Assembly: GCA_018857735.1 (NCBI GenBank) | Contig: JABMCL010000991.1 | Location: 154,501 to 218,500 of the forward strand | Direction: 5' to 3' | DNA length: 64,000 nucleotides | Source: Alviniconcha marisindica | Lineage: Eukaryota; Mollusca; Gastropoda; Provannidae | In this document: piece by piece, positions 997 to 46,230 of the stretch | How the letters are laid out: each line of letters starts with the position of its first letter | Numbering within the stretch: the stretch's first letter is position 1 | Notes under the pieces: model-generated | Databases searched by the model: none | What the model saw: the letters and a program-made list of their open reading frames with translations, nothing else | Told to the model about the DNA's origin: nothing | Translations under genes and position numbers: made by a program

Positions 997-1064
997 CAAA
1001 GCCTTGTCCTTGAACTCTTCCAACAGCTCTGTTTTGCGGTACAGGCAGCCTGGCTTAGATTTGC
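997..1064 (-). CDS. DDX11: DDX11 exon 11: third Fe-S cysteine
   Basis: It encodes [20 protein letters not shown] and KAL, aligning with the segment of human DDX11 around its third Fe-S cysteine. The acceptor is TTTCCAG and the donor GTGAGT. It is the last exon I can see before the left edge. Confidence 0.85.
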
Positions 1065-43533: not shown

Positions 43534-46230
43534 CTGCAAAAGAGCCAAGGTGAGGGGTCAGTGAGGGAAGGTCAGCAAGCCGGGAGGGGTGCGACAGGCT
43601 AAGGGCAAAGGTGATACTGTGATTCAGTGGAAAATACTGGGAGGGTGCGACAGGCGCAGGGCAACGGTGATACTGTGAGTTCAGTGGAAAATACTGGGAG
43701 CGTGCGACAGGCTAAGGGCAAAGGTGATACTGTGATTCAGTGGAAAATGCTGGGAGGGTATGACAGGCTAAGGGCAAAGGTGATACTGTGGGTTCACTGG
43801 AAAACAATAAGCAGCTGGGGGGGGGGGGGGGGGGGGGGGGGGGGGTGGGGGGGGGGGGGGGGGAGAAGAGGAGGTAAAGGAGGGTACTGCAAGTTAGTTC
43901 AGCAGAAAGCAGGGGTGTGTGTGTGTGTGGGGGGGGGGGGGGGGGGGAGGGGCTTGGGGGGGGCGATGAAAATGAAATATTAAAGTGTTCAGTGAAGGAA
44001 AGTCATGAAGGCAGGCAGGGTGAGGAAGCTGTGAACAGAGCTGAAGAGCAGGTTCATGTTTGTCGCAACAAAACACCTCTTTTGTCATGACAAAAGTATG
44101 CTTGTCACGACAAAAGTTTTGTTGCGGCAGAATTACGTTTGTTGCAACAAAATATTTTTGCTGCAACAACCAGTGTTTGTCGCAAGAAATGTTGTTGTTT
44201 TTAGACAAGCATACTTTAAGATGTGTTTTGTTGCGACAAACATGTCTTTGTCACGACAAACACGCGTCTGTCACGAAAAACTTTTGTCATGACAAAAATT
44301 TACTTGTGGCAGCTCCCGCCAATGATAATTCTGAGTCCTGGCTCACAGACGGAAACCCTGAAGGTGATCTACAATTCCAAGCAAACAGACATGATCTACA
44401 ATTCCAAGCAAACAGACAGACAGACAGACAGACACTTGAACACACAGACATTTCCTCTGAAAACTCAAACAGGTTTAAAACTAACACAACAAGTCAGTCT
44501 ACATTCCAAGAGCTGACACTACACTCTAAACAAAGACGTAGGCTTGATGCACGCACGCCAAGTACATCACCGAGGTAAAAAGTCATGGGGTTGGCGACCA
44601 TGAGTTCTACAACAAGAGCGCTGATGACTCACTGATCACTGTGGTGAAAGCTGACAGGGTCGGCGAACATGCTGAAGGTCTTGAGTTCTACAACAAGAGC
44701 ACCGACGACTCACTGATCACCGTGGTGAAAGCTGACGGAGTTGGTGATCACAGTCCGGCAAGGATCTGTATCAAGTCGTACAACACGAGCATGGACAACT
44801 CACTGATCACCAAGATGATAACTGACGGGGTCGGCAACCATGCTGGCGGTCACGAGTACTACAACAAAAGCATGGACGACTCACTGATCACCGAAGTGAA
44901 AGCTGACGGGGTTGGCGACCATGCTGGAGGTCACGAGTACCACAACAAGAGCATTGACGACTCACTGATCACTGTGGCAAAAGCTGACAGGGTTGGCGAC
45001 TATGCTGGAGGTCACGAGTACTACAACAAAAGCATGGACGACTCACTGATCACCGAGGTGAAAGCTGATGGGGTTGGCAACCATGCTGAAGGTCTTGAAT
45101 TCTACAAGAAAAGCACTGATGACTCACTGATCACCGTGGTGAAAGCTGACGGAGTTGGTGATCACAGTCCAGCAAGGATCTGTATCAGGTACTACAACAA
45201 GAGCACTGACAACTCACTGATCACCAAAGTGAAAGCTGACGGGGTTGGCGACCATGTTGGAGGTCACGAGTACTACAACAAAAGCATGGACGACTCACTG
45301 ATCACCATGGTGAAATCTGACGGGGCTGGCAATCATTCTGAAGGTCTTGAATTCTACAACAAGAGCACTGATGACTCACTGATCACCGTGGTGAAAGCTG
45401 ACAGAGTTGGTGACCATGCTGAAGGTTGTGAGTACTACAATGAGAGCACTGACGACTCACTGATCACCGAGGTGAAAGCTGACGGGGTTGGCAACCATGC
45501 TGAAGGTCTTGAATTCTACAACAAAAGCACTGACGACTCACTGATCACCGAGGTGAAAGCTGACGGGGTCGGCAACCATGCTCGAGGTCACGAGTACAAC
45601 AAAAGCACGGACGACTCACTGATCATTGTGGTGAAAGCTGACGGGGTTGGCGACCGTGCTGAAGGTCGTGAGTACTACAACAAGAGCATTGACGACTCAC
45701 TGATCACTGAGGTGAAAGCTGACGGGGTTGGCGACCACAGTCCGGCAAGGATCTGTATCAAGCTGTACAACATGAGTATGGACCATGCTGAAGGTCGTGA
45801 GTACTACAACGAGAGCACTGATGACTCACTGATCACCGAGGTGAAAGCTGACGGAGTCGGCAACCATGCTCGAGATCACGAGTACAACAAGAGCACTGAC
45901 GACTCACTGATCACTGAGGTGAAAGCTAACGGGGTTGGCGACCATGCTGGATGGAGGTCACGAGTGCTACAACAAAAGCATGGACGACTCACTGATCACC
46001 GAGGTGAAAGCTGACGGGGTTGGCGACCATGCTGGAGGTAGGGCTGGGCGACTCCTGCTCCAAGCTGCTGCGGTGAGCGGCGTTGACAGCCGAGTGGCCG
46101 TGGGCGGTGCTGTAGGCAGCGTTGACGTTCACGGCGTTCCTGGACAGGTGGGACAGCGACCCTGTGCTCCCCATGGCGGGCCGGTGACGGAGGAACGTCT
46201 TGCTGGCCACGCTGGGAATGGTGGGATAGC
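43052..46230 (-). CDS. Unidentified gene, last two exons (C-terminal region)
   Basis: Exon 46230-45993 (acceptor GTTTCCAG, donor GTGAGT) joins 43533-43052 (acceptor TTTTGCAG) in phase 2. The protein reads YPTIPSVASKTFLRHRPAMG, STGSLSHLSRNAVNV..., QAPDRMAALGYMTSSASA, then after a one-base frame change LPPGTHNHNNARNKSITPST to a basic C-terminus KKPSKRKKLLNMFRKTPKQK ending PV. It is Ser/Asn-rich and looks disordered, with possible phosphosites (SMTIDDSDDNLSQ). I do not recognise the family. The intron is mostly a tandem array of the exon end. An upstream exon at 57113-57229 would fit by phase. Confidence 0.7.
43560..43805 (-). repeat. ~59-bp minisatellite, 4 copies
   Basis: GGTGCGACAGGCTAAGGGCA, AAGGTGATACTGTGATTCAG and TGGAAAATACTGGGA. 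It lies 30 bp upstream (gene sense) of the last exon but does not include its acceptor. Confidence 0.92.
43817..43960. repeat. G-tracts
   Basis: G-runs of up to ~25 at 43819-43863 and 43929-43947. Confidence 0.95.
44059..44300. repeat. Array of ~10 short palindromes, consensus TTTGTYRYRACAAA
   Basis: Near-perfect dyads such as TTTGTCGCAACAAA, TTTTGTCATGACAAAA, CTTGTCACGACAAAAG, TTTGTTGCAACAAA and TTTGTTGCGACAAAC occur with centres spaced roughly 20-22 bp (one larger gap). The half-sites are conserved while the central 4-6 bp vary. Confidence 0.85.
44590..46030 (-). repeat. ~81-87-bp minisatellite, 17 copies of exon tail plus GTGAGT donor
   Basis: Each unit on the gene strand includes CATGGTCGCCAACCCCGTCA, GCTTTCACCTCGGTGATCA, then GTGAGTCGTC, identical in layout to the true exon border at 45993/45992. 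The antisense strand is open for 457 codons because unit lengths are multiples of three; I do not regard that as a gene. Confidence 0.93.
45993..46230 (-). CDS. Unidentified gene, penultimate exon
   Basis: 238 nt, entering in phase 1 and leaving in phase 2. It encodes SVASKTFLRHRPAMGSTGSL, SHLSRNAVNVNAAYSTAHGH and SLEQESPSPTSSMVANPVSF, HLGD. Its last ~40 nt and donor GTGAGT are the seed of the 44590-46030 array. Confidence 0.75.

Follow-up and report, generated by a model that had tools for sequence, protein, structure and literature searches.

Tandem arrays across exon borders in DDX11 and two neighbouring genes of a molluscan genome resemble the mirage minisatellites of amphioxus

Why do tandem arrays in three neighbouring genes of this locus lie across the borders between exons and introns? 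The window analysed here, a stretch of 64,000 bp (positions 154501–218500 of contig C2550 in an assembly of 817.6 Mb), is packed with tandem repeats: TRF, run over the whole window, detected 43 non-simple arrays (42 when merged) that cover 21,266 of the 64,000 bp. The first-pass annotation had listed six arrays starting exactly at an exon–intron junction, and with exon borders supplied by gene models all six were recovered by TRF, four in DDX11, one in a DDIAS-like gene and one in a third gene. The array at DDX11 exon 8 was shown to be a weak case, and that of the DDIAS-like gene lies apart from its exon. An exact start at the border adds no evidence, because a tandem duplication lying across a border necessarily yields an array whose first unit begins in the exon. 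The name mirages for tandem arrays across exon borders goes back to a study of the amphioxus Adh gene (cited in PMC3087553), and it is used below.

The minus-strand gene was identified as DDX11 by a single open frame of 301 aa, a DEAD_2 match (8.8e-17) and homologues.

997..11175, minus strand: DDX11 exons 3–11
11175–11039, minus strand: exon 3
9771–9668, minus strand: exon 4
9094–9075, minus strand: exon 5
8619–8552, minus strand: exon 6
7717–7634, minus strand: exon 7
4438–4208, minus strand: exon 8
4054–3947, minus strand: exon 9
2309–2225, minus strand: exon 10
1064–997, minus strand: exon 11

The first coding exon probably ends near 12008. FANCJ and CHL1 were among the solved structural relatives of the protein. 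Homologues numbered 993, and among the 120 listed the best match from a named organism, at 52% identity, came from Elysia chlorotica, a sea slug, followed by that of an annelid. In a tree of the window sequence and 24 chosen rows, which contained no cephalochordate, the window DDX11 fell into a clade with Elysia, Mytilus and four other rows (support 97/99), and the vertebrate, arthropod, cnidarian and annelid rows lay outside it. For a fragment of muscle myosin from this genome the best matches were eight myosin chains, which we take to be those of squid and scallop. On these grounds the genome is very probably that of a mollusc.

The four DDX11 arrays in the window have their borders inside the array or at most 3 nt from its edge.

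10698..11070, minus strand: donor mirage of exon 3, 96–99 bp × ~3.8 (TRF 96 × 3.8), border 11039
6658..7644, minus strand: donor mirage of exon 7, 58 bp × 17, border 7634
4436..5233, minus strand: acceptor array of exon 8, 74 bp × 11, border 4438
1811..2257, minus strand: donor mirage of exon 10, 111 bp × 4, copies 99% alike, border 2225

The earlier description of every unit as an exon end plus a splice site holds generally. The unit consists of ~40 nt of exon end followed by ACG|GTAT at exon 3, of ~13 nt followed by GGTAA at exon 7 (17/17 units) and of ~33 nt followed by AAAA|GTGGGT at exon 10. That description fails at exon 8, where the array overlaps the exon by just 3 nt, TTTCAG is kept in 5/11 upstream copies and the AG is lost in the other 6/11. 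The exon 8 units additionally contain TTTATTCTGTAG and ACG|GTAAGC, and in most of them an AG is followed 20 nt on by GTAAGC, an arrangement that resembles repeated micro-exons.

DDX11 intron 7 (4439–7633, minus strand; 3195 bp) carries differing arrays at its two ends, and 1989 bp of the intron is array sequence. A common origin of these exon 7 and exon 8 arrays as one family was considered and dropped, their local score (11; shuffled mean 6.8) being too weak. When the exon 7 unit was searched against the genome, with common words skipped, all nine listed matches (9/9) lay within its own array; without a listed match elsewhere, the unit was not regarded as an introner or other dispersed mobile intron element.

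A further 20 kb of DDX11 (loci L039 and L040) contained two more border arrays, with exon numbers above 11 counted over eight homology matches.

L039 (C2550:144501–154500): array at the exon 16 acceptor, 51 bp × 23
L039 (C2550:144501–154500): array at the exon 17 acceptor, 88 bp × 6.6, units with ~70 nt of coding sequence

Another array was found 26 bp from the exon 14 acceptor. In the exon 16 units the acceptor is followed ~15 nt on by GTGAGT, again resembling repeated micro-exons.

The plus-strand gene, which we take to be DDIAS-like, contains a Rep_fac-A_C stretch (5.4e-6) that at 26.7 bits is below the Pfam cut-off of 28.5. The third gene had as its sole profile match a sub-threshold CMI2B-like one.

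18070..18288, plus strand: acceptor mirage of exon 2 of the DDIAS-like gene, 96 bp × 2.3 (TRF), authentic acceptor 18410
21486..26760, plus strand: large coding exon of the DDIAS-like gene, with five arrays
43052..46229, minus strand: third gene, penultimate exon 46229–46000, last exon from ~43478 to the stop at ~43052
44601..46037, minus strand: donor mirage of the penultimate exon of the third gene, mostly 81 bp (78–90), 17 donor-block units including the authentic one
42946..43081, minus strand: stop-codon array of the third gene, 34 bp × 4, with the authentic coding end in the first unit (CCTGTGTGA)

Upstream of the authentic acceptor of DDIAS-like exon 2 the array holds two copies of TTTCAG|A with the exon start, and 121 bp of SINE-like appearance lie between it and the authentic exon; the insert at 18290–18400 (plus strand) presumably resembles a tRNA-derived SINE. 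In the third gene, where the TRF pieces 44601–45737 and 45781–46037 were merged, the unit consists of ~35 nt of exon end and a weak donor, GTGATC, which is lost in some units; a stronger-looking donor, ATCA|GTGAGT, is also present in each unit.

The five arrays within the DDIAS-like exon (22530–26810) have periods of 30, 60, 15, 42 and 42, all divisible by three, as expected if the reading frame is under selection in this exon. In the last of them one unit, at about 26740, falls a base short of the adjacent ones. The open frame stops at 26760, beyond which a different frame still appears to be coding, through either a variant or an assembly error. Periods of the border arrays are mixed (81, 96 and 111 divisible by three; 58 and 74 not), and since three of these are multiples of three, period was dropped as a sign that border arrays ignore the frame.

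Whether borders carry more arrays than chance would place there was judged against a seed-based simulation, the null being the frequency at which a unit-length seed lands on a border. Arrays were present at 6/25 borders of the window, against 1.07 expected when seeds were placed in the whole window (P 0.0005) and 1.33 when they were placed in gene bodies (P 0.001). This count of six includes the DDIAS-like case, added by eye, and arrays called by TRF directly cover 5/25 borders (whole-window P 0.004); the window is moreover the discovery set, chosen for its striking look. The large share of arrays that borders were earlier stated to seed amounts to 6/42 merged arrays in the window as a whole, though to 4/7 in the DDX11 part. 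Over the whole of DDX11, arrays were found at 6 of ~35 borders against 1.8 expected (P 0.01), and beyond the window at 2/16 against 0.8 (P 0.2).

An independent sample was therefore taken outside the window, comprising 98 exons with 196 borders from 70/75 myosin-head and 28/53 SNF2 Pfam matches in the same genome. The SNF2 rows were nearly all picked without in-frame stops, and SNF2 loci had flanks of 300 bp only. Distances were taken from the ends of profile matches, whose offset from the true border can reach ~30 nt, and neighbouring loci overlap, so that some intronic arrays were counted twice and no border was. One stretch of the genome (C2278:142786–148463) holds four consecutive myosin-head matches (~positions 119–154), arranged like mutually exclusive exons, with in-frame stops within or beside three of the four.

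In the strict count, made by eye, the splice site lay inside a unit at 10/196 borders (5%) against 7.4 expected from the intronic rate (P 0.22); in one of these, L059, the unit ends one base short, and two loci that pass the automatic strict rule (L043 and L046; 12/196) were removed because their arrays stop short of the true AG. By that rule a comparison with shifted positions gave 12/196 against 62/1632 pseudo-borders (6.1% vs 3.8%, P 0.07). A looser count, of arrays across the border or within 15 bp of it, gave 17/196 against 9.3 expected (P 0.015), against 8.8 when only intron >100 bp away served as background (P 0.009), and against 78/1628 shifted pseudo-borders (8.7% vs 4.8%, P 0.014). 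Array density was 1.16 per kb in the border zone, 1.03 at 15–50 bp, 1.16 at 50–100 bp and 0.55–0.64 beyond 100 bp (near vs far intron, P 0.017); the excess extends 100 bp into the intron, and intron 15–100 bp away is as enriched as the border. Border arrays are thus widespread, at ~5% of sampled borders, and their strict rate is not significantly over background. A bias towards exons may exist that is less than twofold and centred off the splice site; border targeting in its strict form is not supported. The arrays themselves, their presence in other genes and a border rate that does not clearly exceed that of introns were observed directly.

Which copy serves as the splice site in DDX11 can be read from homologues and frame. 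At the exon 3/4 junction (ESPTGT|GKS) homologues continue without an insert in 7/7 rows, and at the 7/8 junction (KRK|L) homologues having this part show none, save one extra residue in Elysia chlorotica; the 10/11 junction is uninformative, as the length of the sequence around it varies. Because homologues run uninterrupted across the 3/4 and 7/8 junctions, the exon-proximal copy would be the working one. The frame, like the homologues, favours the exon-proximal copy, and regular splicing may be undisturbed. All 22 extra donors of the DDX11 arrays in the window would lead to a premature stop (exon 3, 3/3; exon 7, 16/16; exon 10, 3/3), as would, at exon 8, 11/11 upstream TTTCAG-type positions (5 with AG) and 11/11 TAG-type acceptors. 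With premature stops predicted throughout, the DDX11 copies tested are, as judged by their predicted translation, not spare sites, and the idea that a remaining spare splice site is the condition for tolerating such arrays was not supported.

The copied sites were also ranked for conservation, as the fraction of windows in the unit whose conservation equals or exceeds that of the splice motif. This fraction was 0.19 for exon 7, 0.76 for exon 8 and 0.84 for exon 10, and by the same ranking 0.61 for the internal donor and 0.26 for the internal AG of the exon 8 unit; the copied sites in exons 7, 8 and 10 are without clear special conservation. The two motifs of the third gene gave 0.53 and 0.06, its strong donor block ranking among the best 6% of windows.

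The border arrays are, in our judgement, probably mirage minisatellites that arose by random local duplication and were tolerated since the exon-side copy stayed intact. Tandem duplications of ~30–110 bp would arise in introns throughout this genome, which is rich in minisatellites; a few would straddle an exon border by chance, and a straddling array would then expand by unequal exchange or slippage of the ordinary kind. The copy on the exon side would retain the full exon context and remain the working splice site, so that the growing array would be wholly intronic and hence tolerated, while within exons arrays would persist mainly with a period that is a multiple of three. In this explanation the mutational mechanism, the actual splicing in RNA and the action of selection are what we infer. 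By reasoning, a tolerance filter can leave borders with the same array rate as introns or lower it, and by itself cannot raise it, so the excess in the window, unless it is luck, would need a mutational cause. The window excess, that of the whole of DDX11 and the 1.8-fold excess in the looser sample count against random duplication, as do the conserved donor block of the third gene and the mixed periods of the border arrays.

One rival is compatible with random duplication: minisatellite birth may be mildly favoured within ~100 bp of exons, for example owing to local DNA or chromatin features or because older intron near exons is less diluted by insertions, and borders would share in this without being its target. 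The array densities of 1.03–1.16 per kb up to 100 bp, with their near-to-far contrast, and the looser border count (P 0.009–0.015) point to such a bias, which we hold to be quite possible while leaning slightly against it: the numbers are small (18 near and 17 border arrays) and come from two gene families only, the border positions are estimates based on profile matches, some intronic arrays are counted twice where loci overlap, high values also occur for pseudo-borders at 200–280 bp, and the strict count is not significant (P 0.07–0.22). A process acting on the splice junctions themselves and seeding arrays there, as the first-pass annotation had suggested, would explain 6/25 borders in the window against 1.1–1.3 expected, as well as the excess in DDX11 and in the looser sample; it is regarded as improbable, given the bias of the discovery set, the strict result of the independent sample, the absence of any drop in array rate over the first 100 bp beside the border, and the weak result for DDX11 outside the window.

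Selection of the copies as spare or regulatory splice sites, that is as decoys that tune splicing or trigger decay, would fit donor scores of 7.8 for two of three exon 3 copies against 4.5 for the authentic donor, and the nearly unchanged GTGAGT block of the third gene; exon 7 copies mostly score 8.0 against 11.3 for the authentic site. With premature stops from all extra DDX11 sites tested, the AG gone from six of the 11 upstream exon 8 copies and no special conservation of motif columns in exons 7, 8 and 10, this reading was rejected for DDX11 by frame and is quite improbable overall. The units carry splice sites, as in the route to new introns through tandem duplication across AG|GT sites described in PMC4974935 and PMC3087553, and the arrays had on this ground been linked to intron gain. 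When five DDX11 and third-gene border arrays in four introns were tested, no unit resembled the opposite border of its intron (5/5 tests): opposite borders scored 8–11 against shuffled means of 7.7–9.3 and maxima of 13–19, and own borders 59–88. The intron ends are not copies of one segment, intron gain by this route is accordingly a most improbable origin, and arrays would have been added to existing introns. Nor are the arrays likely to be assembly artefacts, a very doubtful account even though the one-base frame break in the DDIAS-like exon indicates that small errors or variants occur; copies differ in a structured way, and similar arrays are found on other contigs.

Random duplication with a tolerated intronic array thus remains the preferred explanation, and its closest parallel is in amphioxus. 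There, PMC3087553 describes mirages at 5′ and 3′ borders of globin genes, reports RT-PCR that suggests normal splicing, and proposes mirages as a route to new introns; PMC3902484 adds a PGBD5 mirage and cites troponin C, so that the genes named in these two papers are Adh3, the globins BflGb6 and BflGb9, PGBD5 and troponin C. Amphioxus units span the exon/intron boundary, measure tens to ~160 bp, leave the authentic copy at the exon, and many but not all of them retain the splice signal. The arrays described here likewise span the boundary, weakly so at DDX11 exon 8 with its 3 nt of exon, and involve both border types, donors at DDX11 exons 3, 7 and 10 and in the third gene, and acceptors at DDIAS-like exon 2 and DDX11 exons 16 and 17. 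They differ in belonging to another phylum, the genome being molluscan by the DDX11 tree, in copy numbers of up to 17 in the window and ~38 at the sampled locus L035, and in being known from one assembled sequence. The human IFI6 (6-16) minisatellite is said to carry multiple splice donor sites, a report attributed to Turri et al. in 1995; it is alike in repeating donor sites in one gene and unlike in being a single gene whose copies, by the title, serve as donors, which the reading frame opposes in DDX11 here. Intron gain by tandem duplication (PMC4974935) shares a duplication that includes splice signals and differs in that no new intron is seen here. Human gene structures changed by tandem repeats are the subject of PMC2812944, and passages of a cone-snail paper (PMC3862624) mention only simple repeats in introns. 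A search by title in the open-access literature found no report of mirages in a mollusc. The border arrays are real and of a kind already known, mirages, and apparently new in this setting.

What makes the finding useful is the rate, about 1/20 of the borders sampled. Mirages would thereby be extended beyond the cephalochordates, and most of them may be explained simply by frequent minisatellite birth. We tentatively propose that they are no peculiarity of lancelets and may occupy about 1/20 of borders in this molluscan genome (10/196; 95% interval 2.5–9.2%), with births about twice as frequent up to 100 bp from exons as farther into the intron, and with splicing routinely picking among up to dozens of near-identical sites. 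If ~5% of borders carry their own tandem copies, this genome would be a natural test bed for splice-site choice, with many authentic sites beside near-identical copies whose consequences for the frame can be read directly.
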